From the NCBI GenBank assembly GCA_919901855.1, contig CAKKQC010000040.1, positions 124,001-188,000 on the forward strand: a DNA stretch of 64,000 nt, in the 5' to 3' direction. Position 1 is the first letter of the stretch. Each line of letters opens with the position of its first letter. A program made the translations under genes and the position numbers. This document shows positions 27,763-64,000 of the stretch, in pieces. The notes beneath the pieces were generated by a model. It made no database searches and was not told the origin of the DNA. It worked only from the letters and a program-made list of their open reading frames with translations. The DNA is from a bacterium. GTDB lineage: Bacteria > Oederibacteriota > CAKKQC01.

Positions 27763-27772
27763 AGAATTGACA

Positions 27773-28348: not shown

Positions 28349-28364
28349 GGAGGGACGCGCATTG

Positions 28365-28371: not shown

Positions 28372-28383
28372 ATTGCTGAGCGG

Positions 28384-32512: not shown

Positions 32513-35500
32513 TTGAGCAGGCGGTGCGACTCGACTGACGGTTCGAACACAATCCGGGCGCTATCAATTCGCCTGGCCCTTCCTATGTTGCTCTGGGCTT
32601 CCGCGAGCGTCGCGGCCGACCCATTCGATCCCGTAGACGACCTGCGCATTTCCGGGAACTGGGTGACCGCGCTCTCGACCACGGCCTGGTCCCAGCCGCA
32701 CACGCTCGACGCCGTCGATGCCGTGGACTGGTACCGGGTCTGGCTGTCGGAAGGCGTCAGTTACGTCTTTTCTTCCACCTTCACCGGGGCGGCGGCGTCG
32801 ATGGGAGCCGGCGACGTCCGGGCGTGGCTCTACGACGATCCGGTCAGCATGACCGCGGTGGGCAGTGACGACGACGGGGGCGGCAATTCGCAGTTCAACC
32901 TGTCGTACACGGCGATGGTGAGCGGCACGCACTATCTCGAGGTGCGCACCTACACCCTCGGGCAGACGTGGGCCGGTGCGGTCCGGGTTTTTACCGAGCC
33001 CGCCCGGCTCGCATCCAGCCTCTCCATGGTGCCTTACGTCGTCCCGGTGGGCGGATGGACGGAGGTGCGACTAACGGTAACCAACACCGGCGGTACGGTG
33101 GCGAACGCGGTCCTGCCCGCCCTCCAGATCAACACGGGCGCGGCCGCGGTGGCATTGATCGGCGGTCCCGTGCCCCCGGGGCCGATCCCGCTGTCGCCGG
33201 GGAACGCGGTCACGTTCGTGTGGACGTACAGCGGGAGCGGAGCGGGGATCGTCCGGTTCACGGGGACGGCCGCGGGCACCGAGGCCGGGACCGGGGCGCC
33301 CAAGCTCGGAGCCGCGTCGGGCAACCTGATCGTGACCACGCTGGTGGGGGCCTTGTCGGTCGTGCCGGGGACTCCGGTCGGCGGCACGATGGCGCAGGTG
33401 ATCTTGACCGTGACCAACCAGGGGGCGGCGGTCGCGAACGGGGTCACCGTGACGGTGTGGAACGATGCGGCGGATGGCGAATGGACATTCGCGAGCGGTC
33501 CCGTGCCGGCCGGCCCCCAGACGATCGGGCCGGGGGCCTCGCTCTCGTTCGCCTGGTCGTACAGCGTGGCGGGATGCTCGGCCGCCGTGTTCACGGCAAC
33601 CGCTACCGGTTCGACCGGTGTGGCGATGGCCTCGCGGCTGGCCGTGCCGACGAGCGACGCCTTCGACCCCGCCGACGACGACGGGATGACGACGCCCACG
33701 GTGCTAACGCCCACGCTGGTGATGCAGTCGCACGGTCCGCACCGGCTGTGCGCCGGCGATCTCGCGGACTGGTTCCAGATACCGCTGAATATCGGGGAGA
33801 CCATCATCCTGACCTCCACGTACGCGGGAGCGGCGGTGTCGATCGGGGACGGAGACACCTACGGCGAGCTTTACAGCGATGCGGCCGGGACGAATGAAGT
33901 CGCCTACGACGACGACAGCGGCGACGCCAACCGCCAGTTCCGTGTCTCTTACATGGCCGAAGCGACGCAGACCTACTATCTCCGGGCTCGGACTTACACC
34001 GCGGGATCCCGTTGGCAGGGGTCGATCCGGTACTGGAAGATCGCGGCTCCGATCGCGCCGCCGGCGCCGGGCGTTACCGCCGTTCCGGGGCCGCATCAGG
34101 TCACGCTGTCCTGGCCGCTGCTCAACACCAGCCCGACCTCGGGACTGCCCATCAGCGCCTACCAGGTCATGCGGGCGACGGGGCCGCTGGGCCCGTTCTC
34201 GGTGCTCAAGTGGATCGGGGCTCCTGCGGGCGGGTTCTCCGGCACGGGGACCACGATCTTCGTCGATCCGTCGGCCAGCCCGGCGTACGGACATACCTGG
34301 TATTACCGCGTGAGGATTCGCGACAGCTTCCCCGCGTTCTCCGATGCGCTGGTTGTCTCGGCAAAGCCCGAGTGGTCCGGCTGGCACCGGTTCCGCGGCG
34401 ATGCGTTCCTCTCCGGCCGGTCCCCGGTGTCCGTGCCGGACCGGCTCGAGTTCATGTGGAAGACCGCGGTCCTGCCGAACGGGCTCCACCAGGCGGTCCA
34501 GCACAAGGGGACCGTCTACCTCACCGATACGGGAGGCGCTCTGCGGCCCTACGACGCGTTCACGGGCGTGGCGGGGACGCCGGTGGCAAACAGCACGAAC
34601 CCCATCTACATGGCGCCCATGGTCGGCCTCGACGAGATCATCTATTACTCGGCCATGGACTCCAACGGTAAGACCGGGCTGTACGCCTGGAACATGCCGG
34701 GGCTCGGGGTGAAGTACGGGGCGATCATGACCTCGTCGAAGGGGTATGAGGGGGCCTGGATGAACCTCTCGATGCTGGCGCCCGGCGAGGTCTTCACCGC
34801 CAACGACTACGGCGACTACTATCTGCTCGACGCGACTCCAGCGGTTGATTGGAAATACGTCGACATGCCTGGGCAGATCGGCGGGTCCGCCGTGCTCATG
34901 AACGGGGATGTGGTGTCGTTGCAGTGGACGACCGCCGGCGATGTGCTGTGCCTCACGCCGGAAGGCGATGTCCGGTGGACCTTCTCTATGGGGTTCTACC
35001 CTTCCGGCAAGTCCTACGAATCGAACCTCGCGGTCGGTCCCGATGGGACCGTTTTCGCCGCCACGGGCGACTCCAAGGCGGCTACGAATTACCTGTTTGC
35101 GATCCACCCGAAGACCGGAGCGCAGATCTGGACGGTGTCGGTGCCCGGGATGATAGGCGGGATCGCTTGTGGTCTGGACGGCTTCGTCTACCTGACGCGT
35201 ACTGATGTCGGACAGGGATTCGTCCAGAAGGTGACTCCCGGGGGTAGCCTCCTCTGGACGGTCACGCTGGGCGGGGGAGCCGGGGGAGAGGCGGCGCCGC
35301 CCGTCCTAACGGCGAACGATCGAATCCTGGTCGCCTACAAGGTGGGGACGACTGAGAATGGCCTCGCGCTCCTGCGGGCCTCGGATGGCGGCTTCCTGTG
35401 GGACTGGCGGTCGGGCACCGCCACGGTGGCCAACGCTCTCGCCGCGCCGATCCTGACGCCCCAGGGCCGCGTGTATGCGTCTCTCGACAAGATCATGGCC

Positions 35501-38500
35501 TCGTTCGCGGTGCCGCCCGTCGTCTCCCTGACCAAGCAGGTGTCGGCGCCGGTGGCCGTGGCCGGAGACCAGTTGACCTACACGATCGCGTGGAGCAACG
35601 CGAGCGTCACCACCGCGACCAACGTCTGGATCTGGGACACGCTTCCGGGCTGGTGCGCGTACGCGAACCCGAGCCTCGCGGTCAGGGTGCCGGCGGCGGT
35701 GACCGTGAGCGCGCTGAGCGCGACCGGGCTGTCCGGGCCCTGGGCGGCAGGGGAGCCCGCCAACGGCGCGGTCGCGCCCCGGATCATGGAGTGGCTCGTC
35801 TCGAGCATTCCCCCGTTCACGAGCGGCTCGCTTTCGTACACCGTGAACCTGAGCCTCACCATCACGGGTTCGCCGGCCCTGATTTCGAACCAGGCCAGCG
35901 GGACCTGGTTCTTCGGTTCCACGACCACGATGCAGTCGAGTGGGGTGGTCATGACGACGGCGTGGGGGAGCCCGGCTGTCGCCCTCAACGTGCGGCGTCC
36001 CGATCCCGTGTACGCCGCGGCCGGCGAAGTCCAGACCTGGCGGATCGACATGGGCAACACCGCGGTGTCCGCGACGGCATTCAACCTCGTGCTCACGAGC
36101 CGCACCTTCAACGGCCGGGCCTACGAGGCGGGGAGCCTCTCGACGTGGGTGGGCGGGGTGGGGACGGTGACGTCTTCGTGGGCGACCGCAGGCGGGGGGC
36201 CGTGGACGCCGGGAGAGCCCGCCGGCGGGACGCAGGAGCCGCTCCTGCTGAGGTGGACCGTCGCGCAACTACTTCCCGGGATGAGCGGGTACGTACAGTG
36301 GCAGGTGCGCCCGGTGGCAACGGGGAGCTCCCGGCTGGGCGTCACGCTCTCGGCCACGTTCTCGTGCGATCCGTCGCTCGCCATCGGCCGGGCGGTGTCT
36401 CCCGACGACATCGAGCGCGGCGGTCGCGTCGATCTCCCCATGCAGTGGATCAGGCTGCACGACGGGGCGTGGCCCCGCCACGGCACGCCCCAGAGCGGTC
36501 GGGCCGTCGCCGTGGACCCGGGCGGCAACGTGATCGCGGTCGGGTACGACGACCTCACGGCGTTCGGGATGAACCACGACTTCCTGATCCGGAAGTACGA
36601 CCCGGCGGGGACCCTGATCTGGAGCCTGACGTACAACTTCAACGCCGCGGTGCCGAACACGGACGAGGCGTTCGGGGTGGCGACGGACGCCACGGGGAAC
36701 ATCGTGGTGGCGGGGAACACGGTGCTGGCGAAGACGGACTGGCTGGTTCTGAAGCTCGACCCGTCGGGGGCGATCCTGTGGACGCGGACGCTGAACGCGC
36801 TGGGGAACGGCGACGACTTCGTGGGCGGGTCGACGGGCACTAGCGGGTTCGGGAATCCCGTGGGCATCGACGCGAGCGGGAGCATCTACGTGGCGGGGAC
36901 GGAGCGGAACGCGAGCTTCCAGAACGCGTGGCTGATCGCGAAGTACGACCCGGCGGGCACGTTGCTCTGGACGAAGACGTGGAATGGAGCGGCGTCGGGA
37001 GGCAGTACCGCAAACGCGATTGCCGTGGATCCGGCCGGCAACTTCGTCGTGGCGGGCACGGCCGGCTTCGGGGGATCGGGGACCGAACTGGTCCGCAAGT
37101 ACGACTCCGGCGGGAACGAGGTCTGGACGACGTCGTGGACCAACCCGGCGGCGATGATGGGGCTGGGCGCCCTCGGGGTCGGTCTCGACCGGGACGGGAA
37201 CGTGTTGGCGGCCTGTTTCGAGAGCCTCCAGTGCATGCAGGGGGACTGGAAGATCCGGAAGCTGGATCCGCTCGGGATCCCCCTGTGGGAGCGCGGATTC
37301 GATGCGGGGGGCGGATGCTCCGAGGACGAGCCGTACGGGGTCGCGGTCGACGGGGCCGGGAACTGGCTGGTGGGGGGGATGGCCAGGCCGCCATCCGTGC
37401 CGGGGTACTGGATGCTGCGCAAATATGATCCGGCCGGCAACCTGGTGGACGCGATCGCCCGGAACGATCTCACGGACTCTGGCGGGTTCCCCGGCACGCG
37501 CCTCCTGGGGGTGGCCGCCGCGGCGGGGAGCCAGGACGCCTGCCTCGCCGGGGACGAACAGATGCTGGAGGGCAACTACGACATGGCGGTGGCCCGGTAC
37601 GCGACGGCGCCGTTCAGCGCGCCGTCGCCTCCGGTCACGCTCACGGCGAACGCGACGGGGTTCGCGATCACCGTAGGCTGGTCGCAGGCTGGCGCCGGGA
37701 CGAACCCGGTGGCGGGCTACCGGATCTACCGCCAGACCTGGCCGGGCGTGCTTTCGACGGCGGGGGTGCTGGTGGCCACCGTTGCGGGCGCGACGTCGAC
37801 GTACTACCGGGACGCGTTCGTAGTGCCGGGCGTCCAGTATTCCTATCGCGTCCTCGCGGTCGATACCGCAGGCGTGCCGGGCTACCTCTCGCCCGAGGGG
37901 TGGGCGGCGATCACGGGGTCGCCCGCGTGCGTGCACAAGCAGGGCTCGCCGGCGGGGCCGATGTGCGTGGGTGCGGTGATGACCTACACGATCTCGTGGA
38001 GCAACGCCGGCGCGGTGACGGTGACCGGGCTCACGATCACGGACACCCTGCCGGGGGCGGTCGGGTATGTGGGGGCGAGTCTCGTGACGTGGATGCAAGC
38101 CGACGGGTCGGGGACGCCGGGGCTCTCGGCCTCGGCGTACGCGCCGTCGCTGGGCGGCCCGTGGACGCCCGGCCAACCCGCCAACGGGACCGTGGGCGTG
38201 GTCCTGCGGTGGGTCGTGAACCGGGTGGTGCCGGGGGCGTCCGGGTATCTCACGTTCCAGGCGGCCGTGCAGGACAGCGGGGCGCTGGGCGACGGGGCGT
38301 CGTTCGGAAACCAGGCGTCGTCCACGAGTTCGATCACGAGCGATCCGCTGATGACCGAGGCGGCGGCGAACACGGCCAGCCGGCCCCCGCTTCCCGTGTC
38401 GCTCTATCTCAGGAATCCGGACCCGCTCTATGCCTCCATCGGCGACGCGATCCAGTATGCGCTGACGGTCTCCAACGGCAGTTCGGTGACGGTTACGAAC

Positions 38501-56500: not shown

Positions 56501-59500
56501 GCCACGACGGGCGTGATCGCGTGGTCGGGCACCGTCACGCTCGCGCCGGGGGCCAGCGTGACGGTCATTCTCGACGCGACCGTGGCGTGCGCAGCGGGCA
56601 CGATCTCGAGCACCTCGTGGGCGCGCGGGACGCGCGGCTGTGTGTGGGGTGAGGCCGCGAGTGCGCCCGATGCCTTCACCGTGGTGTCGCCGGGGGCTCT
56701 GGCAGCCGCGGTTTCCGCGCCGGCCATCGTGTCGGTGGGGCAGATCTTTGCCGTCACTCTCACCGCGACCAACACCGGGGGAGCAGCGGTCGGGACGCTC
56801 ACTGCGACCGCGTTCGTGGGGCCGGGGGTCGCAGCCGTCCTGGGGCCGGTGCCGGCGGGCTACGGGGTCTTGGCGCCGGGGTTGGGGGACACCTTCGCAT
56901 GGACCGTGACGGCGACGGCCGCCGGGCCGGTTACCTTCACGCTGACGGCGGCCGGGTTCGCGTGCGGGACGACGACGGTGCTGGCGGCTTCGACGGTGGT
57001 CACGACCGTGCAGACGCCACCCGCACTGGCAGTTCACGTGGCCGCATTCCCCGATCCAGTCGTCCAGGCGAGCACGTTCCTCGTGACCGTCACCGTGACG
57101 AACACGGGTCAGGCGGGGGCCTCCGGGCTCGTCTTCGACGCGTTTGCGCAGGCGGGTGCCGGCGGAGCCTCGTTGTCGTCCGCTCCCGTCCTGCCGGGGG
57201 CCCTCGCCGGGGGAGCGGCGGTAACCCTGACCTGGACGTTCACGGGCTCGACCATCGGGTTGGTTGCCTTTACGGCAACCGTCTCCGGGGTCGACGTGAA
57301 CTCGGGGGCCATGGTGGCCGCCGCCCGGGACACCTCGGTCCCGGTGACGGTCACCTCGCCCTCGTCCCTGGTCGCCGCGATCTACGCGTCCCGCACGTCG
57401 GTCAGCGTCGGGCAGGTCATCGAGCTCAGCCTCACCGTGACTAACACCGGCGGTGTCGCGGCGACGAACGTGGCCGCGGCGGCTTGGCAGTCGGGTGGCG
57501 CGGGGACGGCTACGCTGAGCCCCGCCGCACCGGTGTTGGTGCCCTCCATCGCGACGAACGCGGGCGCTCTCTATACGTGGAGCGTGACGGCCACGGGGGC
57601 GGGCACCCTGTGCCTGTCGGCGACTGCGACCGCGGATGGCCCGATTGTCTCGGGGGCGTCCTCGGTCTGTATCGGCGTGGAGACGCCGGCGTCGCTCGCG
57701 GCAACGGCGACGTTCCTGCCCGCGACCGCGTGCGTGTTCCAGAGCGCGCTCTTCGTCCTAGATGTCGCCAACGCGGGACAGGCCGCGTCGTCCGGGACGA
57801 CCGTGAACCTCTGGCCGTCCGGCGGCGCGGCCGGTTACGTGACGATGGGCCCGAACCCGGCCGGCCCGATCGCGATCCCGGGCGGAGCTTCGGTGTCGTT
57901 CACGTGGACGGTCATGGGCACGTCGGCGGGTACGCTCTCGTTGACGGCGACCGCCTCGGGAGCGGATGTCAATACGGGAGCGGCGGTCGTGACCGCACCC
58001 GCCGCCGCGGGCCCGGTCACGTTCTCCGATCCCGCGGACCTGTCGCCCGGCCTCACGGTTGCCGGGGTCGCGTCGGTGGGGCAGGTGGTGCCGCTCTCGT
58101 TCTCGCTGCGGAACGTCGGCGGCACCGATGCGACCGGTGTGACGCCCAGCGCGACGACGACATCGGGTTCGGGTTTGCTCGGACCGATGGTGCCGGCCAG
58201 TCAGGATGTTCCGGTGGGCGCGACTCGGCTCTTTGCATTCGACTACACGGTCGAGACGCCGGGGGTTCACGTGTTCAGCATCACGGCAACCGGGCTGACG
58301 TGCGGGACCGCGACGACCTCGGCTTACATCACGGGAAGCCTGACGGCCGAAATGCCGGCCGTCCTCTCCGCGACCGCGATCGTGACGACGCCCGCGACGG
58401 TGACGGTGGGAGAGGTCGTGGTCGTGACGATGACCGTCACGAACACGGGGGAGGCGTCCGCGACGGGTGCGGCGGCGAACCTGCTGGCCGCCGGGGCGGC
58501 GGGCCTGCTCGGCGGACCGTACCCGGCCGGTCCCGTGGCGATCGCGGGGGCCGCGAGCCAGACCTTCGTCTGGACCTACACGACGACGGCGGCCGGGGCG
58601 GTAACCTTCACGGCGACCGCGGCGGGGGCGGATGCGAACAGCGGGGTGGTCACGGCCGTCGGGCCTCTCTCGATCCCGGGGGTCATGGTCCTGACGCCGG
58701 CGGGCCTCTCGGCGGCTGTGTCGGTCTCGCCGGCGGCCGTGTGCTCCAGCCAGACCTTCCAGGTGCGCCTCACGATCACGAACTCGGGGATGGCGGGCGC
58801 GACGGGGGTCGACGCGGGCGCGTTCGTGGTGTCGGGCGGCGGCGCGGCGACGCTGGTCGGCGGTCCGACCCCGGCCCTCCCGACCGGACTGGCGGGAGGC
58901 CTCTCGCGCGTGTTCACTTGGACCTTCACGGGTTCCTCGGCGGGCGCCGTCTGGTTCACGACCACGGTCTCCGGGACCGATTCCGTGAACGGGGCCGCTC
59001 TGTCGACGGGCCCCGTGACATCGGCGGCCGAGGCGGTCGCGACGGGCGCCGTTCTCGCGGCGGCGCTCTCCTTCACGCCCGCGGTGGCCTCAGTGGACCA
59101 GGTGGTTGCCGTCGTGCTCACGGTCAGCAACACCGGTGACACGGCCGCGCTCGGGGTCGGCGCGAGCGCGACGACGGTAACGGGGGCGGGCCTCATGGGG
59201 TCCGCGGTTCCGGCGAGCCAGGGTGTGCCCGCGGGTGGGTTCGTGACGTTTGCATGGACGTACACGGCCTCGGGTACGGCGCCCTCGCACGTCTTCAGCG
59301 TGACCGCGTCGGGGACGGCATGCGGCGGGCTGGTGGCGATGGCGGCGACGACCGGGACGCTGCCGGTGGAGACGGCGGCGGCGCTGTCGGGGACCCTGAT
59401 CGTGACGACTTCGGCGATCGTCGAGGTGGGGCAGCTCATCGTGCTCACGATGACGGTGACGAACACGGGGGCCGCGGACGTCACCGGCGTCTATCCGATC

Positions 59501-62500
59501 CTGAGTCCGTCGTCAGGAATCGTCTCCGGCACGCTTCTGTCGCCCGTCGGGCCGGTTGCCGTCGCCGGCGGGGCGGCGCAGACCTTCGTGTGGACCTACA
59601 CCGCGACGGCGAGCGGGTTCGTGTCCTTCGCCGGGAGCGCGGCGGGGGCTGACGAGAACAGCGGTATGGCGGTCGGGACGGGAGCGAAGGTGACGCCCGC
59701 GGTACAGATCATGACGCCGGCGAACGTGTCGGCGGCGATTACGATATCTCCCGTCGGCGTGTGTGTCGGGGAGAGCTTCCAGGTCCGGCTGACCGTGTCG
59801 AACACGGGTGAGGTGGATGTCCTGTCGCTCGACGCCGGGGCTTTCGTGGTTTCCGGCTCCGGGGGAGTGGTCCTGGTCGGTGGGCCGTCGCCCACGCTGC
59901 CGTCCACGGTCGGCGGCGGGCTGACGCGTACGTTCACGTGGACGTTCACGGGAGGGGCTGCCGGAAGCGTCTGGTTCACGACGACGGCCACGGGGTTGGA
60001 CGCGCTGACCTCCGCGGCTCTCTCGACCGGCCCGGTGACGTCGCCGGCGGAGGCGGTCGCGACCGGCGCGGTCCTGTCGGCGGCGGTGTCGTTCACGCCC
60101 GCGGTGGCCTCGGTCGGCCAGCCGGTTGCGGTCACGCTCACGGTCAGCAACACGGGAGACACGGCGGCCACCGGGGTCGCGGTGAGCGCGACCACGGCCA
60201 CGGGGGCGGGGCTCCTGAGCGCGGCGGTGCCGGCCAGCCAGGGCGTGCCGGCGGGCGGATTCGTGACGTATGCGTGGACGTACACGGTCTCGGGCACGGC
60301 GCCCGGGCACATCTTCAGCATGACCGCCTCGGGCACGGCCTGCGGCGGGCTGTTCGTGGGCGCCCCCGCCTCGGGGATCCTGACCGTCCAGGCGGCGGCC
60401 GCGCTCTCGGGGACGCTGATCGTGACGACTCCGGCTATCGTCGAGGTGGGGCAGCTCATCGTGCTCACGATGACGGTCACGAACACGGGGGCCGCGGACG
60501 CCAACGGCGTCTACCCGCTCATGAGCCCGTCCTCCGGCATCGTGTCCGGGACCCTCCTGTCGCCGACATCTCCGGTCGTCCTGGCCTCCAATGCCTCGCA
60601 GACGTTCGTGTGGACGTACACGACGACGGCTGCCGGGTCGGTGTTCTTCGACGGGCGCGCCGATGGGACGGACGCGAACAGCGGCTTCGCCGTGGGGACC
60701 GGTCCGATGCCGGTGCCGGCGACGCAGGTGCTGACGCCTCCGAGCCTGGCGGCCGCGGTCACGGTTGAGCCGGTCTCGGTCTGTTCCGGGCAGGACTTCC
60801 AGGTCCGGCTCACGATTACCAACTCGGGACAGGTGACCGCGAATGGCGTGGATGCGGGTGCCCTCGTGCTCTCGGGCGCGGGCGCGGCCCTCGTCGGCGG
60901 GCCGACACCCGCCCTGCCAATGACCTTCGCCTCGGGTGTGTCCCGGACATTCACCTGGACGTTCACGGGTGCGGCTGCGGGGAGCGTCTGGTTCACGACC
61001 ACGGTCTCGGGAACCGACGCGATCACGGCGGCGGGGCTGTCGACCGGCCCGGTGACTTCGGCGCCGGTCGCGGTTTCCACGCCGGCGATCCTGGTGGCGA
61101 GCGTCTCGGCGCCGACGACGGCGTGCACGAGCTCGGTGGTGACCGTAGTCCTGACGGTGACGAATACGGGCGGCGTGGACGCGACGGTGGTGGCTCCCAG
61201 CGCGACGACGACATCCGGCTCCGGGTCGTTCGGCGCCCCGGCTCCCGCCAGCCAGACGGTGCCCGCAGGCACGATGCGGACCTTCTCGTGGGCCTATACG
61301 GTCGACACGGCGGGGTCGCACGTGTTCAGCGCGACGGCCAGCGGGTTGACGTGTGGATCGTCCGCGGTCTCGGGGGACGCGATGGGGACGCTGGCGGCGA
61401 CCGCCGCGGCCTCGCTGTCGGGGACCCTGATCGTGACGACTCCGGTGCCGACCGAAACGGGCCAGATGATCGTGCTGACGATGACGGTCACGAACACGGG
61501 GATGGCTGTGGCGACGGGGGTCACGGGATCGCTGGTGCCCGGCGCGGCGTTGGGCGTGCTGGCAGGGCCGTTCCCGGCCGGGCCCGTCTCGCTGGCGTCG
61601 AGCACGTCGCAGACGTTCGTCTGGACCTACACGACGACGGGGGCCGGGGGCGTCAGCTTCACGGGTGGCGCGACGGGGACGGATGCCTGCGGGTCGGCGT
61701 TGACCATCGGCTCTCCGGCGACGCCTGCCGTCCAGATCCTGACGCTTCCGAGCCTGGAGGCCGCGGTGACGGTCGAGCCGATCTCCGCGTGCTCGGGGCA
61801 GTCCTTCCAGGTTCGCCTGACGATCACGAACTCGGGTGAGGTGACCGCGAACGGCGTGGACGCGGGCGCCCTCGTGCTCTCGGGCGCGGGCGCGGCCCTC
61901 GTCGGCGGGCCGACGCCCGCTCTGCCGATGGCCATTGCCGGGGGGGTCTCCCGGACATTCACGTGGACTTACACAGGCGCGGCTGCGGGGAGCGTCTGGT
62001 TCACGACCACGGTCTCGGGGACCGATGCGCTCACGGCGGCGGGCCTGACGACCGGTCCGGTGACGTCGGTGCCCGTGACGATCTCCACGCCAGCGGTCCT
62101 TGTTTCGAGCGTCTCGGCTCCGCCGGCCGCCTGCACGGGTTCGGTCGTGACGGTGACGCTGACGGTGACCAACGCGGGCGGCGTGGACGCGATGGCGGTT
62201 TCGCCCAGCGCTACGACGACATCCGGATCGGGGCTGTTCGGCGCCCCGACTCCCGCCAGCCAGACGGTGCCCGCGGGCACGATGCGGACCTTCGCGTGGA
62301 GCTACACGGTAGGGACGGTGGGAGCGCACAGCTTCAGTGCCACGGCGAGCGGGCTGACCTGCGGCTCCTCGGCGGTGTCGGGCGCGGGAGCCGCGAGCCT
62401 GGCCGCGACCGCGGCCGCCGCGTTGTCGGGAACCCTGATCGTGACGACGCCGGTGCCGCTGACCGTGGGCCAGGTCGTCGTGATGACGCTGACGGTGACG

Positions 62501-64000
62501 AACACGGGGGCCACCGCGGCCACGGGCGTGACGGCCTCGGTCGTGCCCGGCGGGCCTTTCGGGATCCTGGGCGGGCCGTATCCTGCCGGGCCGGTCGGGA
62601 TCGCTGGCGGCGGGGCCGCCCAGACGTTCATGTGGACCTATACGGCCACGGGCGCGGGCGGCGTGAACTTCACCGGGGGCGTGGTAGGGACGGACGCCTG
62701 CGGGTCGGCGTTGACCATCGGCGCTCCGGCGACGCCTGCCGTCCAGATCCTGACGCCCGCGAGCCTCGCTGCGGCGGTCACCGTGGCTCCCGTGGCCGTC
62801 TGCGGCGGCCAGATCCTCCAGGTGCGGCTGACGGTCACGAACTCCGGACAGGCGGGAGCGGTGGGGGTAGATGCGGGGCTCTTCGTGGTCTCCGGCGGCG
62901 GCACGGCGGCCCTGGCGGCCGGGCCGTCTCCGGCGCTGCCGGTGGCGCTCGCGGGCGGCTCATCGCGCACGTTCACATGGACGTACACGGGTGGAACCGC
63001 CGGGAGCGTGTGGTTCACGACGACGGTGACGGGGACTGATGCGGTCTCGGGCGCGGCCCTCTCCACCGGTCCCCGCGTGTCGAGCGCGGCCGTGATCAGC
63101 ACGGGCGCCTCGCTTGATGCGAGTCTGTCGGCTCCCGTGGGAGCTTCGAACGGCCAGGTGGTTGCGGTGACCCTTACCCTCACCAACACGGGTGGCGTCG
63201 ACGCCACCGGCGTCGCGCCCGTGATCGGAGTCGTGGCCGGAACCGGCACGTTCGGGGCGCCGTCGCCCGTGAGCCAGACCGTGCCCGCCGGAGCCATGCG
63301 GACGTTCTCGTGGAACTACACGGTGGGGGCGGTGGGGACGCACGCCTTCAGCGCGACCGCCAGCGGGCTGACCTGCACGTCCCTGCCCGTGTCCGCCTCG
63401 GCCGCCACGAGCCTCGCCGCGGTGGCCCCCGCCGCCCTCGCGGGCTCGCTCGTGGTGACGACGCCCTCGCCGCGCACCGTCGGGGAGCTGATCGTGATCA
63501 CGATGACCGTCACGAATACGGGCGGAGCCGGGGCGTCGGGCGTCACGCCGGTCCTGAGCCCGACCGCCGCTCTCGGGGTCCTGGGCGGCCCCGTGCCGGC
63601 CGGCCCGGTGGCGATCGCGGGCGGCGGGAGCGCCGTGACGTTCGTCTGGACCTACACCGTCACGGGGCCGGGCACGGTGTCGTTCAACGGCAGCGCCGCG
63701 GGGGCCGATGCCAACAGCGGGCTGGGCGTCTCGACTGGCGGACTCGCGACCGGCAACGTGATCGTGACCGCCGCGGGAGCCCTGGCGGTTACCTCGCTCC
63801 TGATCTCGCCCGCGCCGAGCGTGAACACGGGCGACGGATTGACGGTCACGCTTACGGTCCGCAATCCGGGAGGCAACCCCGTGAACCTGACCGGGGTGAC
63901 GCGCACGACGGGCAATCCGGCCTCGTTCGGGGCGGCCTCGGCGCTCGCGCCGGCGGTGCCGGTTACGGTGAACGCGGGCGCGTCCACGGTATTCACCTGG
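32513..64000 (+). CDS. Second giant multi-propeller/FN3/CARDB secreted protein, 3' partial
   Basis: The frame is open from the TGA at 32453-32455 to the last base (codon TGG 63998-64000), so the gene leaves the window. From TTG 32513 it has 10,496 codons. TTG is chosen because it gives a good signal peptide: n-region with Arg, core RLALPMLLWASASVAA, mature start DPFDPVDD. The only nearby ATG (32585) would leave just 11 residues before the cleavage site. Order: two PPC-like domains around two CARDB-like ones (32620-34050), FN3, PQQ-like propeller, DUF11, two NPEPLY-SBBP modules (35985-40020), FN3 runs with a Ycf48-like propeller and three kelch propellers (40025-47500), PQQ-like propeller, three NPEPLY-SBBP modules (48940-54360), DUF11 including one with an inserted kelch, then 22 CARDB-like domains from 56690. 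No catalytic motif seen. Likely a huge extracellular or surface adhesin/fibre; function inferred. Confidence 0.92.
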   Translation, partial: MSRRCDSTDGSNTIRALSIRLALPMLLWASASVAADPFDPVDDLRISGNWVTALSTTAWSQPHTLDAVDAVDWYRVWLSEGVSYVFSSTFTGAAASMGAGDVRAWLYDDPVSMTAVGSDDDGGGNSQFNLSYTAMVSGTHYLEVRTYTLGQTWAGAVRVFTEPARLASSLSMVPYVVPVGGWTEVRLTVTNTGGTVANAVLPALQINTGAAAVALIGGPVPPGPIPLSPGNAVTFVWTYSGSGAGIVRFTGTAAGTEAGTGAPKLGAASGNLIVTTLVGALSVVPGTPVGGTMAQVILTVTNQGAAVANGVTVTVWNDAADGEWTFASGPVPAGPQTIGPGASLSFAWSYSVAGCSAAVFTATATGSTGVAMASRLAVPTSDAFDPADDDGMTTPTVLTPTLVMQSHGPHRLCAGDLADWFQIPLNIGETIILTSTYAGAAVSIGDGDTYGELYSDAAGTNEVAYDDDSGDANRQFRVSYMAEATQTYYLRARTYTAGSRWQGSIRYWKIAAPIAPPAPGVTAVPGPHQVTLSWPLLNTSPTSGLPISAYQVMRATGPLGPFSVLKWIGAPAGGFSGTGTTIFVDPSASPAYGHTWYYRVRIRDSFPAFSDALVVSAKPEWSGWHRFRGDAFLSGRSPVSVPDRLEFMWKTAVLPNGLHQAVQHKGTVYLTDTGGALRPYDAFTGVAGTPVANSTNPIYMAPMVGLDEIIYYSAMDSNGKTGLYAWNMPGLGVKYGAIMTSSKGYEGAWMNLSMLAPGEVFTANDYGDYYLLDATPAVDWKYVDMPGQIGGSAVLMNGDVVSLQWTTAGDVLCLTPEGDVRWTFSMGFYPSGKSYESNLAVGPDGTVFAATGDSKAATNYLFAIHPKTGAQIWTVSVPGMIGGIACGLDGFVYLTRTDVGQGFVQKVTPGGSLLWTVTLGGGAGGEAAPPVLTANDRILVAYKVGTTENGLALLRASDGGFLWDWRSGTATVANALAAPILTPQGRVYASLDKIMASFAVPPVVSLTKQVSAPVAVAGDQLTYTIAWSNASVTTATNVWIWDTLPGWCAYANPSLAVRVPAAVTVSALSATGLSGPWAAGEPANGAVAPRIMEWLVSSIPPFTSGSLSYTVNLSLTITGSPALISNQASGTWFFGSTTTMQSSGVVMTTAWGSPAVALNVRRPDPVYAAAGEVQTWRIDMGNTAVSATAFNLVLTSRTFNGRAYEAGSLSTWVGGVGTVTSSWATAGGGPWTPGEPAGGTQEPLLLRWTVAQLLPGMSGYVQWQVRPVATGSSRLGVTLSATFSCDPSLAIGRAVSPDDIERGGRVDLPMQWIRLHDGAWPRHGTPQSGRAVAVDPGGNVIAVGYDDLTAFGMNHDFLIRKYDPAGTLIWSLTYNFNAAVPNTDEAFGVATDATGNIVVAGNTVLAKTDWLVLKLDPSGAILWTRTLNALGNGDDFVGGSTGTSGFGNPVGIDASGSIYVAGTERNASFQNAWLIAKYDPAGTLLWTKTWNGAASGGSTANAIAVDPAGNFVVAGTAGFGGSGTELVRKYDSGGNEVWTTSWTNPAAMMGLGALGVGLDRDGNVLAACFESLQCMQGDWKIRKLDPLGIPLWERGFDAGGGCSEDEPYGVAVDGAGNWLVGGMARPPSVPGYWMLRKYDPAGNLVDAIARNDLTDSGGFPGTRLLGVAAAAGSQDACLAGDEQMLEGNYDMAVARYATAPFSAPSPPVTLTANATGFAITVGWSQAGAGTNPVAGYRIYRQTWPGVLSTAGVLVATVAGATSTYYRDAFVVPGVQYSYRVLAVDTAGVPGYLSPEGWAAITGSPACVHKQGSPAGPMCVGAVMTYTISWSNAGAVTVTGLTITDTLPGAVGYVGASLVTWMQADGSGTPGLSASAYAPSLGGPWTPGQPANGTVGVVLRWVVNRVVPGASGYLTFQAAVQDSGALGDGASFGNQASSTSSITSDPLMTEAAANTASRPPLPVSLYLRNPDPLYASIGDAIQYALTVSNGSSVTVTNLAVMTRPGMFANRSYVTPSFSALILGSNVTSSAWGVTEFGPWIPGEPPDGTADPVYVRWTFDVLRPGGAGTIQFRARALAGGTTMLYGYAGATGDTGVGCRAGLPYTTTDTGERLFPPPLAWIRLTSTGAVNMGSGSVDVAYGVAVDASGGVVVAGAGDRSDIFQGKNWLVRKYDAAGNPGWTDNFDSGMGDDKAEAVAMDGVGNAYVAGVTGGSDWLVRKYGPGGGLLWNQTYNGPGSSMDEATSIAVDAMSGSVYVGGWQWTGGAAGYEWAVRKYDSGGGLVWMQSGNGPRANSEYLYGVAVDPWGDIVAGGHETNLSTGQDVSVAMWDATGSLLWSRSWAASGMSDDEARAVATDRNGNVYVAGISNPASAYNWLVQKYDNAGNLVWTRKYANPGNSNNCGAYGITVDDAGNVVVTGQVDYGMSTEDMWNWVTRKYDNAGNLIGVEEHTGIVPTPLGGVGGPHGKDGLNAVAPVPASQAVVVAGSEDVQGEVQNFAVAKYILTPWSPPQAPLNMTAAGGGLQAALSWTPAAAGSRPVSGYRIYRQTWGGVRPVVQTLLAEVNGPASGAFTDFAVTAATRVYYRILAVDDQGAESRLTDEVDVLPVVSLPPSAPPSLTALGQNQQVALNWAPSTQGTDPLAFYDIFRATCADCPYNIVGGVAATTTSTLDPGGLVNGTTYWYKVRAGSTVPDYSAFSMTASGTPLDENLNPPGCFTAAQRGTSNVIDLAWCFAPAGTHPATAYAIYRTTYAGPALGAVAVVDALTNAAVDRVPAPGTYWWHARAVGSLSDPSPLSGPIVIAGSPPGVPMNLTAIGQVAAIALAWDASVAGTYAVSGYFVYRGSFPGGESPAFIARLIGMYATAYTDTAILPGIMYYYTVNAYDALLPIPNESGASAEATAAALAPLVAGAGTWIEQWNPSRTYVPGSTFFLQDVASPSRKVGYAVGFNGTVLKTVDGGLDWKRLASFGAVTDLYAVAFSDTSTGVVAGGASGSGNYIWRTSDGGQSWVVTGSATQAVRALAFTTSWTGFAASLNGEVYRTDTAGASWTLLPTAVSENLNGISAVEVSPGVEHVWAVGAAGRVIKSVNGGAGWGTYVLGSGKADMEDVAFGGPDVGWIVGAPADAFMTNAGGDTAVEWVNMTVGGAAKYGVTFTDTVSGWITGSRSGVVDGIIKMTKNSGLTWADEATRSYLSISTGPRSFRQSAFAGVADGWAVGEKGIVVRRTQDDPPVPPLDLSARAGSDRVNLSWSEATPGTYPLSGYMVYRSTYTGGGYDRIQRLYDPLTTTFTDFGVTVSLRVYYVVRGYDTDGIESANSNEANAMPSGGLPNPPGAPSALTGKPMDAMARLVWRPSPVGTYPVSGYQVYRATYSGFALAGGTYIGRTWGLSATGYLDSPLVNATPYYFRVRALDDQATPNYSLPSGELFVLTFRPPLPNLVWTQGAPALFTHYMPAVAELDGYVYAVGDGTNWSQKTERYHPGTGVWTELGDLDSGRSGPGRFEVAALGGTLYALDPYGGSSVERFDPATGKWILTGVAIAGTRTRFDYAGDALGGSFYFFGGSMSILTDKQVDSFTVPAAYTAHPNWTFSRSGYDATTFGSRIYVTGGSEYTSLSRVEAYDPGAESWTMREPMPTGRYGLRTERLGGLIIAMGGMSCTGVVEAYDPKADIWYRGFKAMPVSGDNFGSVVVGGKVRAVGGVTSSSFNGEARILEAVGGPGRVGLQWEYQPGTWPIAQFRIWRATYSGGQNLLGAPQFPMAGTATATVDSAAVDGITYFYVMDAVDTRGNRSPMSPEVYAAAFVPPSAPASAVVSDAGDAYLEIQWSPSVPGSFPIDGYNVYRGGFPGGPYSLIASVSGAYATTYTDAGILNGFPRYYVIRARDSQPAPLPPALSGPSPEAWGTPAAPPLLGLEWRLRSKMAAARKGFALGLIDGKIYVAGGEGAMFGNDVPTVEVFDPFTNKWSPRSNLGFTSRKWLSSAVWGGRLYTFGGDIANLPQTTVEAYDPATDSWSAKFPLPRAREKTGAAQLGGLVYVTGGAPPGFMGNTWMDIYNPASDTWQAFPSDIPTARSYHISDVQDGRVWLVGHESMTLTPYDALDPATGTWRTYDDEGMLTPGGMTQHSHNFFGGNWQDKILIIGGTSGGPASPIVDVYYPRGRTMRRTGDLNVPRGLGRLVTTEVGKVYAVGGDMNPTTSDDCEEGRSLIVRNRNGNAIDLRWVHQKGTNSILNYQVFRATFCGGGTLYQRVAALDALNVPPATQTTSLYADLTVVPGTWYYYQVRITDNAGKSAITNEDWALAAVPPSAPTNLTVLTEGSRFLILSWAPSASGGTYGITRYAVYRSTGSDGPFMPAGTTLDAGTTAFIDMFLTDGVRYTYAVAAQDAADPANEGAWSATNSGEPYEPPAPFIVAWTALPSLNTARWGHGLAAWNNQLYAFGGDGGAGTLASMEVLSPLAFGSPWVPLAPSGVPFVARRLFGCTLRDGKFWVVGGNSGLSVTPITAMQVFDPSTTGWSDVVTAGFDPMEGFGMEADPVTGWLVAFDGYNGSGYSYELQYRNPVSSGWTVISNPMFGGWPARSRLGSATSGFSAFFFGGDNGSAQNAVQEYVFWRQDLVDHQWMPVATAGPAGATLVYRPYAIGGNGLIAAGTTPVMEYNPSKRTWATRAALPAPRTDARAVNMNFKLYVVGGRTAVGGAALASAFEGEPLHAVPGDDVVGLNWGVEAGTYPLASYKLYRSTSSPESWGGLGAPAYSFGPGTTSYTDAAVTNGNAYFYIGVADDVRGHQGLMWDVATLPISAPANLTAVAGSSAIALSWDPIANPDGENLIGYSVFRTTYAGVGLIDMPSASLYMAGMVSRNQTWFTDVGLTNGTKYFYVVRAISSQTFWGNPSNEAWATPAYIQPPGVPQDLVATPGLDQVVKLTWTASCAGGAAITGYRVWRTTMPATSPKVTGIQIASVILPQSATVFMMLVDQTASAAFGRTYYYALDALDENKPPTLSGESAVASAMPGAGYWRMARGDVEGTGRSQLADGLRTSLAVGWSIPTSGTVWGTPAVNAADGSLYVTDDGALGGFLYHIDATGGVLWSPALPVGGVGTVSSPSISYADEFGTVDRIYVGGRSGAAGYLYSFDNAGVLVWSRLLGGPVNASPLPLPGGGVIVGADNGVVRAYQRDGSIAWTANLPGAIVGAVGFVNDAIVVGCGDWNLYGLRPDDGLVLGSIALTGTPSGFSADPVRKHLYVATRGGRLHDVDVNVGPTIAWTGNAGGAFVGAPAFDQTTGNVFAACTDGLVYGFNVADPAGTFASEDTGAPILSSIAVAAKGRLYWTDEAGRAVEAAGPGVGLSVCAPAGAGPFGTASPALWQDGSGRGRVYAGSRSQAVHAFVDAPGRPQGLVATTLPGAVRLDWTVSVAGFYPVSGYTVWRATCAACPASWAGYTPDALSTTWADTTVAPATPYWYRLYAYDDSPYLNPSLAATVTGTSGGACAPSLTLKARNPEPLYVNCSEQQLWRVAFSNPGASTVFNLTITAKLPQLAERYYAVESFSATLTGGAAITASAWAQFAGYTPGEPTLGTTTDPLYLRWTVGALGPGRSGEVSFRTIAACNPPEALLEVMVSATMSCDPGGVSQFVVPYSDTATGKRIEPPLYALRLRSAPGMAATPFDMDTDSAGNVYVVGREASAAGDINGRICKFNPSVAAQLATTTYEGTAGGTGEALGVVVDAGGNPIVAGYENMTLGGYNWRIRRYDPSLTAVLASTTYDAPNGGSDRAIAIALDASGNVFVGGKEDGPGGQDEWSLRMYNPALSVLLGATIWGGADALDDQVESLALDASGNVYAAGLETTVAAGNNWRIRKYGPGLATLLASTNFDGSAGGNDEAREILVDAAGFVYVAGWELAAAGGNNWLIRKYDASLSTVLAIASYNAPTNGSDRLYGAALDRAGNLVLAGKEDGPGGVDNWSLRRYDNALNFLDGLTHDGIAADEDNLMAVRPFGSGTVYVTGLETVRGGESQAAVARYVLGSWYPPAASIGLTATAGLSLVTLAWTPAVPGTRSVSAYRIYRQTFAGVIPGEGGFLAQVDGATVSAYSDSTVAGGTTYFYRVLVVDLAGAASVPSMESAATPLAACVPNLTLKVRNPEPLYVNGGEVQLWRIAFSNSGAQTVFNLTVTTATGGFFSQTYSAGPSLSVTVTGGGSLASAAWSSDGIAWTPGECSGGCGGPLQLRWVVSPLGPGRSGELSFRTTMLGGGEQAVDVTVSATMSCDPAGLAGAVLSYSDTATGKRIEPPLMALRSYDGPASGVDIAHSAATDAAGNVYVAGREAGLVGLANWRVRRYDPELSAVLSSTDFDGPGSNSEAAYDVAVDGAGNVLVAGSEFDFAGGGNWRIRRYDPTLTALLSSAVYNGPGNTNDSAYGLAIDGAGNVVVAGYETGSVGGTNWMVRKYDATLGTLIAATDYNGPGNAGDFAYSVAVDASGNVVVAGSETGTVGGTNWSVRKYDPMLAVLLGSTDYDGPAGGSDIARRLVVDGAGNVVVVGREAGSAGGVNWRIRRYDPSLTVLLSTTDYNGPGNLSDDAWTVALDGVGNLVVAGSEWGAVGANNWRIRKYDSALNLIDSQAHDGLVAGGTEVAGYRIAVVGSATVYVPGQEDVRDEGTNFMIARYELASFFPPATPAGLTASGYVGYVGLQWTPAAAGTRAVSGYRVFRQTFAGVQGSGLLVDLANVTTSTYNDASAIPGTPYFYRVLAVDWMGAESGLSMEATGSPLAVCVPSLTLKARNPEPLYVSAGEQQLWRIAFSNSSVQTVYNLTITTQAGSFGERTYVPASFSVTVAGATVTVAHTTNMAAAWAQVEPPAPQTDPLYLRWVISSLGPSQSGELSYRTTAIAGLEMAYATAVTATMACDAGGLSGVSLSYSDTATGKRIAPPLMALRTYNGPVSAGDYGNAVAVSPAGDVFVAARESGLAGGFNWRIRSYDATLGTLLASTDYNGPANVSDETTGIAVDAAGNVVVAGYETGLVGGGNWRIRKYDATLTVLLASTDYDGPGSGTDLANGVVVDAAGGIVVVGLERGSAGSDNWRIRRYDATLSTLLAATDYDGPANGADAALAVARDPAGGVVVVGREDGSAGGYNWRVRRYDVTLSTLLATTDYNGAVGNVDIATAVAVDRDGRIFVAGSEWTPGGGDNTRVRCYDSSLQFLKASAMFDSPITALDTAAGASLDSSGNLVLAGYEVGAGSTYDWWVRKLDNALNPVGAKISHDGLLAGYDILRAVAANGTASVYVTGVETVRDENSNAAVARYELPAFYPPAAPAGLTASGYPGYIGLQWTPAAVGTRAVSGYRFFRQTWAGVTEGSYLGQVSDGTTSTFQDATVVGGVQYFYRVLAVDWMGVESAISMEATATACPGLLPLVTMEQAPASPGIGDLVTYRIIVTNPPGGATVTNVTVFDTLSPVIAGPAAVVRPGQVAVFSPVAGGTLFRTVGVPLSPLSPGATFTYTVTGRVAAVCGVTTVANVAFVETSGLCGGGAMLSGTASFTVNPAAASFAVAQTQVPASPGIGATVTYQMVVTNTGAATLLDVLVVDTLTAVVVGVTSAQPAGFGPVVAGVAGSASTYTFSGTRLTWTTKPPMPGSLSGLGAAAINESLYVAGGTSGGAPLASAYRYDLSTDSWAPIAPLPTGRTGVTLAAVGGTVYAFGGFDGGSYLQEVQAYDPATDTWTLRNNAMPTARNGMAVAVVGGNVYLIDGFQSGSPQDAVEVYDPVANTWAVKAPDPDPRTGAGAGVAGGLIYVFGGTDSGGYTALTEVFDPVANTWSTKASLPMARGEIAGVSLNGRVYAVGGVDGGGYGPAVVEYDPANDRWVAQPNMATGRGSLASTAFAGRIAAVGGFSGVTALKTLELGAPGFGPGAVLTFTITGQVGVVCGTTGVSSTAFATGSTACAELDQFGGVSGFVLAPPPVPVLSVVKAHAPASPLPGTAVTYTTVVTNAGASTITALVVTDTLAAGLTFTGQSTSAGLAWNGATTGVIAWSGTVTLAPGASVTVILDATVACAAGTISSTSWARGTRGCVWGEAASAPDAFTVVSPGALAAAVSAPAIVSVGQIFAVTLTATNTGGAAVGTLTATAFVGPGVAAVLGPVPAGYGVLAPGLGDTFAWTVTATAAGPVTFTLTAAGFACGTTTVLAASTVVTTVQTPPALAVHVAAFPDPVVQASTFLVTVTVTNTGQAGASGLVFDAFAQAGAGGASLSSAPVLPGALAGGAAVTLTWTFTGSTIGLVAFTATVSGVDVNSGAMVAAARDTSVPVTVTSPSSLVAAIYASRTSVSVGQVIELSLTVTNTGGVAATNVAAAAWQSGGAGTATLSPAAPVLVPSIATNAGALYTWSVTATGAGTLCLSATATADGPIVSGASSVCIGVETPASLAATATFLPATACVFQSALFVLDVANAGQAASSGTTVNLWPSGGAAGYVTMGPNPAGPIAIPGGASVSFTWTVMGTSAGTLSLTATASGADVNTGAAVVTAPAAAGPVTFSDPADLSPGLTVAGVASVGQVVPLSFSLRNVGGTDATGVTPSATTTSGSGLLGPMVPASQDVPVGATRLFAFDYTVETPGVHVFSITATGLTCGTATTSAYITGSLTAEMPAVLSATAIVTTPATVTVGEVVVVTMTVTNTGEASATGAAANLLAAGAAGLLGGPYPAGPVAIAGAASQTFVWTYTTTAAGAVTFTATAAGADANSGVVTAVGPLSIPGVMVLTPAGLSAAVSVSPAAVCSSQTFQVRLTITNSGMAGATGVDAGAFVVSGGGAATLVGGPTPALPTGLAGGLSRVFTWTFTGSSAGAVWFTTTVSGTDSVNGAALSTGPVTSAAEAVATGAVLAAALSFTPAVASVDQVVAVVLTVSNTGDTAALGVGASATTVTGAGLMGSAVPASQGVPAGGFVTFAWTYTASGTAPSHVFSVTASGTACGGLVAMAATTGTLPVETAAALSGTLIVTTSAIVEVGQLIVLTMTVTNTGAADVTGVYPILSPSSGIVSGTLLSPVGPVAVAGGAAQTFVWTYTATASGFVSFAGSAAGADENSGMAVGTGAKVTPAVQIMTPANVSAAITISPVGVCVGESFQVRLTVSNTGEVDVLSLDAGAFVVSGSGGVVLVGGPSPTLPSTVGGGLTRTFTWTFTGGAAGSVWFTTTATGLDALTSAALSTGPVTSPAEAVATGAVLSAAVSFTPAVASVGQPVAVTLTVSNTGDTAATGVAVSATTATGAGLLSAAVPASQGVPAGGFVTYAWTYTVSGTAPGHIFSMTASGTACGGLFVGAPASGILTVQAAAALSGTLIVTTPAIVEVGQLIVLTMTVTNTGAADANGVYPLMSPSSGIVSGTLLSPTSPVVLASNASQTFVWTYTTTAAGSVFFDGRADGTDANSGFAVGTGPMPVPATQVLTPPSLAAAVTVEPVSVCSGQDFQVRLTITNSGQVTANGVDAGALVLSGAGAALVGGPTPALPMTFASGVSRTFTWTFTGAAAGSVWFTTTVSGTDAITAAGLSTGPVTSAPVAVSTPAILVASVSAPTTACTSSVVTVVLTVTNTGGVDATVVAPSATTTSGSGSFGAPAPASQTVPAGTMRTFSWAYTVDTAGSHVFSATASGLTCGSSAVSGDAMGTLAATAAASLSGTLIVTTPVPTETGQMIVLTMTVTNTGMAVATGVTGSLVPGAALGVLAGPFPAGPVSLASSTSQTFVWTYTTTGAGGVSFTGGATGTDACGSALTIGSPATPAVQILTLPSLEAAVTVEPISACSGQSFQVRLTITNSGEVTANGVDAGALVLSGAGAALVGGPTPALPMAIAGGVSRTFTWTYTGAAAGSVWFTTTVSGTDALTAAGLTTGPVTSVPVTISTPAVLVSSVSAPPAACTGSVVTVTLTVTNAGGVDAMAVSPSATTTSGSGLFGAPTPASQTVPAGTMRTFAWSYTVGTVGAHSFSATASGLTCGSSAVSGAGAASLAATAAAALSGTLIVTTPVPLTVGQVVVMTLTVTNTGATAATGVTASVVPGGPFGILGGPYPAGPVGIAGGGAAQTFMWTYTATGAGGVNFTGGVVGTDACGSALTIGAPATPAVQILTPASLAAAVTVAPVAVCGGQILQVRLTVTNSGQAGAVGVDAGLFVVSGGGTAALAAGPSPALPVALAGGSSRTFTWTYTGGTAGSVWFTTTVTGTDAVSGAALSTGPRVSSAAVISTGASLDASLSAPVGASNGQVVAVTLTLTNTGGVDATGVAPVIGVVAGTGTFGAPSPVSQTVPAGAMRTFSWNYTVGAVGTHAFSATASGLTCTSLPVSASAATSLAAVAPAALAGSLVVTTPSPRTVGELIVITMTVTNTGGAGASGVTPVLSPTAALGVLGGPVPAGPVAIAGGGSAVTFVWTYTVTGPGTVSFNGSAAGADANSGLGVSTGGLATGNVIVTAAGALAVTSLLISPAPSVNTGDGLTVTLTVRNPGGNPVNLTGVTRTTGNPASFGAASALAPAVPVTVNAGASTVFTW
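32620..34050 (+). other. N-terminal PPC-CARDB-CARDB-PPC segment of giant 2
   Basis: Two copies of a pre-peptidase C-terminal (PPC)-like domain: DAVDWYRVWLSEGVSYVF with DDDGGGNSQF and YLEVRTY (to ~33005), and GDLADWFQIPLNIGETIIL with YDDDSGDANRQF and YYLRARTY (33655-34045). Between them are two CARDB-like sandwiches, VTNTGGTVANAV and VTNQGAAVANGV. The Asp/Asn-rich loops of the PPC copies could bind calcium, as some PPC domains do; this is not demonstrated. Confidence 0.75.
34380..35510 (+). other. First PQQ-like propeller of giant 2
   Basis: Quinoprotein-like blades: WHRFRGDAFLSGRSPV, GTVYLTDTGGALRPYDAFTG, GVKYGAIM, GDVLCLTPEGDVRWTF, GTVFAATGDSKAATNYLFAI, KTGAQIWTVSVPG, GFVYLTRTD, GSLLWTVTLGG, NGLALLRASDGGFLWDW, GRVYASLDKIM. 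It follows an FN3 (34055-34370). Confidence 0.75.
35511..40020 (+). repeat. DUF11 and two NPEPLY-SBBP modules of giant 2
   Basis: DUF11 (35511-35985, VSLTKQVSAPVAVAGDQLTY), then a sandwich opening RRPDPVYAAAG, then an SBBP propeller (36430-37610). An FN3 and another DUF11 follow (37615-38390), then a sandwich opening LRNPDPLYASIG and an SBBP propeller (38855-40020). These blades are the variant with YDPAGTLIWSLTYN / NLVWTRKYANPGN strands, like the propeller at 18315-19440 in giant 1. Confidence 0.8.
41222..42160 (+). other. Ycf48-like (photosystem-assembly-factor-type) propeller
   Basis: Repeated blades of the BNR/Ycf48 type: VGYAVGFNGTVLKTVDGG followed by LDWKRL, TGVVAGGASG, YIWRTSDGGQSW, TGFAASLNGEVYRTDTAG, VWAVGAAGRVIKSVNGG, VGWIVGAPADAFMTNAGG, SGWITGSRSG, GWAVGEKGIVVRRTQ. 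The Gly-x-x-x-x-T-x-D-G-G-x-x-W turns are typical. It is the only domain of this type in the window and sits between FN3 runs, so it is a structural or binding module rather than a photosynthesis factor. Confidence 0.8.
42800..46600 (+). repeat. Three kelch propellers alternating with FN3 pairs
   Basis: Kelch propellers at about 42800-43620 (VYAVGDGTN, LYALDPYGG, IYVTGGSEY, AMGGMSC), 44210-45090 (IYVAGGEGA, LYTFGGDIA, VYVTGGAPP, KVYAVGGDM) and 45710-46600 (LYAFGGDGG, FWVVGGNSG, FFFGGDNGS, LYVVGGRTA). Each is followed by two FN3 domains (43625-44205, 45090-45705, 46605-47190). The first ends in a propeller-to-FN3 joint, EAVGGPGRVGLQW, equivalent to EAVGGDDQVGLQW in giant 1 near 13520, so propeller and FN3 were copied as a unit. 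Confidence 0.8.
47510..48640 (+). other. Second PQQ-like propeller of giant 2
   Basis: Begins GYWRMARGDVEGTGRSQLAD, the counterpart of GSWKTARANGYATGRSQAGR in giant 1 at 14445, and keeps parallel strands (GTVDRIYVGGRS against GNVDRIYVGAKT; IVGADNGVVRAYQRDGSI against IIGDQSGLVRRVSRSGAP). An FN3 with a CAACP motif follows. Confidence 0.75.
48940..54660 (+). repeat. Three NPEPLY-SBBP-FN3 modules of giant 2
   Basis: Sandwiches opening ARNPEPLYVN, VRNPEPLYVN and ARNPEPLYVS (48943, 50848, 52768) each end with TMSCDP or TMACDA and a YSDTATGKRI linker. SBBP propellers follow at 49400-50525, 51310-52445 and 53220-54360 with blades of the VDASGNVVVAGSETG type. Each closes with a divergent cap (SGTVYVTGLE, SATVYVPGQE, TASVYVTGVE) and an AVARYEL or MIARYEL strand. 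FN3 domains follow each module. Confidence 0.85.
55300..56150 (+). other. Six-bladed kelch inserted in a DUF11 of giant 2
   Basis: Blades LYVAGGTSGG, VYAFGGFDGG, VYLIDGFQSG, IYVFGGTDSGG, VYAVGGVDGGG, IAAVGGFSG with YDPATDTW / YDPVANTW turns. The host DUF11 (from about 55065) is interrupted after STYTFSGTRL and resumes at FGPGAVLTFTITG. This is the same arrangement as the two insertions in giant 1. Confidence 0.8.
56690..64000 (+). repeat. At least 22 tandem CARDB-like Ig domains
   Basis: Domains of 105-115 residues, each with a strand such as VGQ-x-x-x-VTLTVTNTGG, a middle F-x-W-x-Y-x-x-TAAG strand and a final A-x-GTDA-x-SG or A-x-GLTCGS strand. Starts are spaced about 320-345 bases, from 56695 to 63780, the last being cut by the window edge. 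From about 58360 they fall into three alternating types (see the triad feature). They resemble CARDB/DUF11 adhesion-stalk domains. Confidence 0.85.
58360..63440 (+). repeat. Five A-B-C three-domain super-repeats
   Basis: Type A (LSGTLIVTTPA-x-VEVGQ, AGPVAIAGG, QTFVWTYTTTAAG) starts near 58360, 59387, 60405, 61415 and 62424, with a sixth near 63440. Type B (AAVTVEPVSVCSGQ, FQVRLTITNSG, LVGGPTPALP, GSVWFTTTVSGTDA) follows about 345 bases later. Type C (VSAPTTACTSSVV or SFTPAVASVGQ, SATTTSGSG, PASQ-x-VPAG) comes about 345 bases after that. The super-period is 1,009-1,027 bases. Copies 3 and 4 (60405-62420) contain stretches of well over 30 identical bases, for example within 60850-60900 against 61860-61910. 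Confidence 0.85.

Follow-up and report, generated by a model that had tools for sequence, protein, structure and literature searches.

The giant gene that fills the right-hand half of the analysed stretch, here called g3, is confirmed as a real, unbroken single coding sequence, and its product of 10,734 aa is predicted from domain models to consist of about 70 Ig-like, FN3 and beta-propeller modules and to end in a domain resembling the FlgD-Ig/type IX (T9SS) sorting domains. We consider it probable that g3 serves as a long surface adhesin or stalk without enzymatic activity, that it is exported first by Sec and then by a T9SS-like route, and that it grew by duplication of multi-domain units. 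The window is the whole stretch of 64,000 nucleotides that was analysed (G000:C40:124001-188000), and positions past 64000 are given in window-equivalent numbering. It comes from a MAG that totals 4,681,141 bases over 91 contigs (completeness 93.5%, contamination 0.7%), and the same-family comparison was made with one genome, G001, the Candidatus Coatesbacteria MAG nzgw597. The features at gene level within the window are as follows:

1..27738, + strand: second giant, g2, 9,699 codons from stop to stop (C40:122639-151738), same module set without the FlgD_ig tail.
29585..32455, + strand: 956-aa secreted relative directly upstream of g3, with DUF11/CARDB, FlgD_ig and a C-terminal 400 aa in common with g3.
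32475..32507, + strand: stem-loop GCCCCAGA-GGGGTAAAATACCC-GTA-TCTGGGGC in the 57-bp gap from the 956-aa gene to the TTG of g3.
32513..64000, + strand: part of the g3 coding sequence inside the window, from the ORF, the contig extension and GC by codon position; the gene ends at C40:188717.

The reading frame of g3 (codons starting at positions 3k+2) follows a TGA at 32453-32455 and is open from 32456 to 64000, as the first-pass annotation had reported from the letters alone. The first common start codon in the ORF listing is TTG at 32513, with no obvious ribosome-binding site, which counts against our preferred reading. That annotation had also described a gene without a stop; this holds inside the window, but on the contig the frame ends at a TAG (C40:188715-188717, window-equivalent 64715-64717), which was found by following the contig 715 nt to the right of the window. 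Thus, g3 "never stops" because the window edge cuts the gene, and a whole-contig caller sees a complete ORF rather than missing it; the accompanying warning of false antisense genes was fair, with minus-strand shadow ORFs of up to 1,718 aa over the region. The complete product exceeds the minimum of 10,496 codons that had been foreseen. At the GC content of the stretch (0.702), an independent-bases model gives a probability of about 1e-87 that 10,496 codons contain no stop, and frame +1 contains 327 stops over the same stretch, whereas no in-frame stop turned up within the frame of g3. GC by codon position is 0.63/0.59/0.89 and near-constant across all 3-kb blocks, the high third-position value holding throughout.

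It is very improbable that g3 is an assembly artefact or chimera of shorter genes joined in silico. The fetched part of contig C40 contains 0 N bases, and the longest exact repeats (47 bp within g3 and 28 bp between g3 and the upstream sequence) are too short to mislead a read-based assembly, so that repeat-driven misassembly is unlikely. In addition, the protein has one candidate signal peptide at its start, one sorting-like domain at its end and a uniform composition in between, and the same modules occur in long ORFs of the independent family mate. In the adjoining g2, window positions 7913-10859 hold a base-perfect tandem duplication of 1,470 bp (490 aa; exact match of 1,477 bp), which arose very recently or else is an assembly error, and which has no counterpart in g3. 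This duplication, the MAG origin of the data and the lack of a full-length g3 orthologue in the relatives searched are the points that speak for an artefact. Two other long frames were set aside: a 5,934-codon frame at C6 of the same genome crosses a 100-N gap, and a 24,245-aa frame in a same-phylum genome (G006:C1:223268-296005) arises from 72 kb of masked N and is not a gene. Window- and contig-edge ORFs and N-masked stretches skew giant-gene counts both ways.

The first-pass annotation had read the translation as a coherent series of extracellular domains behind a signal peptide. The series is upheld, with Pfam, NCBIfam and own-HMM matches running from end to end, and the N terminus is a plausible signal-peptide candidate on inspection of the translation. 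From the N terminus, the architecture of g3 within the window reads:

32513..32620, + strand (aa 1-36): signal-peptide-like N terminus, by inspection of the translation (MSRRCDSTDGSNTIRALSIRLALPMLLWASASVAA followed by DP).
32621..34036, + strand (aa 37-508): PPC-like domain, two CARDB-like Ig domains and a second PPC-like domain (own HMMs).
34061..35512, + strand (aa 517-1000): FN3 (own HMM) and a PQQ-type beta-propeller (by inspection).
36503..40009, + strand: two SBBP/delta-60-type beta-propellers (aa 1331-1655 and 2139-2499) with Ig and FN3 between them (Pfam SBBP, NF047494/TIGR02608, own HMM).
41294..42172, + strand (aa 2928-3220): Ycf48-like (PSII_BNR) beta-propeller (PF14870, E 3e-9; NF010237, E 1e-11).
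42815..46576, + strand: three Kelch beta-propellers (aa 3435-3700, 3908-4149 and 4404-4688) with FN3 pairs between them (PF01344, E 9e-43; own HMM).
47525..48637, + strand (aa 5005-5375): PQQ-type beta-propeller (PF13570, sub-gathering for the whole model).
48947..54616, + strand (aa 5479-7368): three tandem units of ~630 aa, each with an NPEPLY Ig-like domain, an SBBP propeller and FN3 (own HMMs; 48-55% mutual identity).
55085..56314, + strand (aa 7525-7934): DUF11-type Ig domain split by a six-repeat Kelch propeller (aa 7599-7874, nt 55307-56134; alignments, AlphaFold/Foldseek).
56603..64000, + strand (aa 8031-10504): array of 22 CARDB-like Ig domains, ending 24 nt past the window (lag identity, Pfam CARDB).

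Modules were counted with HMMs built on the g3 protein itself, beside the Pfam and NCBIfam scans. The own HMMs give ~35 Ig-like domains (DUF11, CARDB and "NPEPLY" variants), 19 FN3 domains, 34 SBBP repeats, 21 Kelch repeats, one C-terminal domain and two PPC-like domains, the name "PPC" having been given by inspection with no Pfam match listed. The beta-propellers number 12 (two PQQ-type, one of them by inspection, five SBBP, one Ycf48-like and four Kelch). Families matched in Pfam and NCBIfam are Kelch, fn3, DUF11/DUF7507, CARDB, SBBP, Ycf48-type, PQQ-like, FlgD_ig and T9SS type A sorting, while the scanned pieces of g3 have no enzyme family at curated cut-off and no SprB-specific family in either collection.

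How the protein grew can be read from several of these modules. The three ~630-aa units share 48-55% of their residues. Their differences are greatest at third codon positions, and residues that are identical are encoded by different codons in about half of the cases; thus, the coding frame has been maintained, and the units are old in-frame duplications. Their closest copies outside g3 are in g2 (40-48%), followed by copies at other places in the genome and in that of the family mate (41%). Within the 22-domain Ig array, mean identity is 0.56 at lag 3 as against 0.34-0.35 at lags 1, 2 and 4, which points to expansion in three-domain blocks of ~1,010 bp. A further mode of growth is nesting: the DUF11 domain at aa 7525-7934 contains a Kelch insert of 283 aa, beyond which it continues at model position 73 of 131, and an alignment of the three nested copies includes two more such cases in g2. 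Three further DUF11 domains of g2 carry inserts of 212-218 aa unrelated to Kelch. Several of the nested domains resume near position 71-73 of 131, and three g2 cases split less cleanly. The nested Kelch insert is modelled confidently by AlphaFold and matches Kelch domains in Foldseek, whereas the Ig halves of the nested DUF11/Kelch model, built with 3 sequences only, have low confidence. Because the model is confident for the propeller only, the nesting claim rests on the alignments. By position, the three g2 domains with non-Kelch inserts, of a "GxxGNNG..TPSLTIPVPAG" type, lie in window 19950-26360 (g2 aa ~7105-9240), near the Kelch-bearing loop.

The neighbourhood of g3 is itself rich in giants. 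In the same direction upstream lies g1 (C40:103109-122227, 6,351 aa), besides g2, whose modules are those of g3 but which lacks a sorting-type tail, a point counted against our preferred reading. Other long frames in the genome have 5,454, 5,113 and 4,710 codons. Downstream of g3 are a Nramp-type transporter, a 757-aa FlgD_ig/Big_1 protein and tryptophan-type genes (IGPS and a PALP-family enzyme). At window 27767-29313 (+) there is a 193-aa secreted-looking protein (TPATFNITVDM...SFTVTINAVAP) that by eye resembles the last ~150 aa of g2; the 309-aa secreted-looking Ig-like protein after it could be a chaperone, making a possible fimbria-like pair, and Pfam finds almost nothing in the two. The stem-loop at 32475-32507 has a fold z of -2.3, lacks a terminator T-run and is not terminator-like; a search of the genome allowing up to 3 mismatches finds it nowhere else, and the window has no Rfam family.

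The 95-aa tail at the very C terminus of g3 scores 38.5 bits against FlgD_ig in Pfam (cut-off 27) and 25.6 bits against the T9SS sorting domain TIGR04183 in NCBIfam (cut-off 23), which suggests a sorting-like domain of the FlgD-Ig/T9SS family. The last 400 aa are common to g1, the 956-aa protein and g3 at ~45% identity. A profile built from 22 sequences of relatives has flagellar FlgD as its first match, followed by the C-terminal domains of PorU and PorZ and, weakly, of RgpB. In the AlphaFold model, seven strands, the number in the Ig-like sandwich of T9SS CTDs, are counted in residues 108-197 at a pLDDT of ~95, and the best Foldseek matches of a two-domain model are tandem-Ig proteins such as intimin rather than CTDs. 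That the tail is a hook-cap FlgD was considered and rejected: the protein has 10.7 kaa, FlgD equivalogs score far below cut-off, and the genome has 52 FlgD_ig matches.

It is doubtful that the FlgD-Ig tail is just another Ig module and that g3 uses a different outer-membrane route. FlgD itself carries this C-terminal fold, which counts against T9SS export, but TIGR04183 is above its cut-off, and in all aligned paralogues the sorting-type tail lies at the C terminus. Moreover, the genome encodes a SprA homologue of 1,951 aa (263.5 bits, cut-off 200; the solved SprA matched at 8e-19) and 66 PorV-family matches (PorV/PorQ, NF033709), the best of them above cut-off; the one protein tested against the equivalog PorV model does not reach its cut-off. 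A different route is favoured by the fact that GldL, GldM and PorU went undetected: no PorU homologue is above cut-off in the genome, the PorU model being matched only via its tail, and GldL, GldM and peptidase C25 (PorU) have no genome matches. Since the control genomes were equally silent, no absence of GldL, GldM or C25 can be claimed. The literature also speaks for another route, as T9SS genes are stated to be absent outside the FCB phyla (PMC11285876, from 2024) and an earlier survey found T9SS only in Bacteroidetes (PMC4793230); by the same token, finding SprA and PorV-family proteins here is of some interest. CTDs, moreover, can be specific to a species (PMC11285876). Across the genome (G000; L097 and others), T9SS-like outer-membrane proteins and cargo-like tails are greatly expanded. 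Near a PorV-family gene, the gene at L097:2850-5114 (-) encodes a protein of 754 aa whose middle part resembles PorZ (NF052228 at 97 bits, which is below cut-off).

Taking g3 as an exported adhesin or stalk, we infer its secretion route, surface location, length and binding function as follows. The single 10,734-aa protein would be exported by Sec via its signal peptide and would then take a type IX-like route through the outer membrane, to which its C-terminal sorting-like domain would direct it and which the genome's own SprA and PorV-family proteins would serve. The ~35 Ig-like and 19 FN3 domains may act as a flexible spacer string, on which the 12 beta-propellers would be binding heads; at 3.5-4.5 nm per domain, the extended protein would reach ~0.2-0.3 micrometre. 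As an adhesin or stalk rather than an enzyme, it would attach to surface polymers, to particles or to other cells, and it would have grown as units of several domains were duplicated within a cluster of similar genes. The label "adhesin" rests on module composition.

A competing reading, in our judgement unlikely, is that the giants of the cluster form an extracellular matrix, sheath or coat packed around the cell, instead of binding foreign targets. Three giants and smaller relatives with modules in common do stand close together, and Ig arrays, which are common in S-layer and coat proteins, also favour a coat. In addition, such a role has been proposed for an Omnitrophota giant (PMC10066038). 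However, twelve propellers of four kinds resemble binding heads more than a repeating lattice, and the domain scans of g3 found no S-layer-type domain. Returning to an adhesin or stalk, one could speculate further, with little confidence, that a lineage outside the usual T9SS phyla exports a cluster of beaded fibres of 6-11 kaa through a reduced T9SS (SprA with a large family of PorV proteins but no canonical motor), and that a loop of the Ig fold is a socket for repeated, unrelated inserts (Kelch and a ~215-aa fold) that place heads off the stalk.

Giant proteins form a well-known class. Counted over all life, UniProtKB contains more than 41,000 with a length of 5,000 aa or above, mainly eukaryotic ones (PMC11573180), and g3 falls among the "huge proteins" defined in that study as single ORFs of at least 5,000 aa. 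The first-pass annotation had placed it among the largest bacterial proteins; this is loosely right, in that it lies in the upper tail, but it is far from the record, as bacterial ones reach ~40 kaa. What g3 adds to the class is an unusually readable architecture: it is a well-supported, gap-free bacterial giant with nearly all modules nameable, and its growth can be followed in three-domain Ig units, 630-aa propeller units and nested insertions. It is distinctive in adjoining two other giants and in its type IX secretion-like tail, and, in an uncultured lineage, it connects giant surface proteins with an export route that can be tested, through SprA, PorV and the FlgD-Ig tail. None of the papers searched deals with Coatesbacteria giants.

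SprB of Flavobacterium johnsoniae, compared here as a functional analogue only, is a T9SS-secreted mobile adhesin of ~6,500 aa. Like g3, whose adhesin role and sorting signal are predicted, it is a giant repetitive surface adhesin ending in a T9SS signal, and its host likewise encodes SprA and PorV homologues. In contrast, g3 is larger, has other modules and carries a type A/FlgD-like tail rather than SprB's own type, and the GldL/GldM motor of the SprB host is undetected in the g3 genome, as it is in the control genomes. Secreted proteins with FlgD_ig/T9SS-type tails in Eisenbacteria, Krumholzibacteriia, WOR-3 and Calditrichota have a C-terminal domain as in g3, but mostly the tail alone is matched, at ~30-46% identity. 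Omnitrophota encode giant ORFs of up to 39,678 aa, for example in Velamenicoccus archaeovorus; these too belong to uncultured bacteria, with a surface or adhesion role proposed, but they have predicted transmembrane helices and few annotated domains (PMC10066038), whereas nearly every residue of g3 lies in a recognisable module and the protein ends in a sorting-like tail. Finally, Giant1-5 of Apilactobacillus kunkeei, surface proteins of 3,000-8,000 aa, are likewise encoded by a cluster of consecutive genes (PMC12863079), although in a Gram-positive bacterium and with beta-solenoid heads, other domains and another mode of export.
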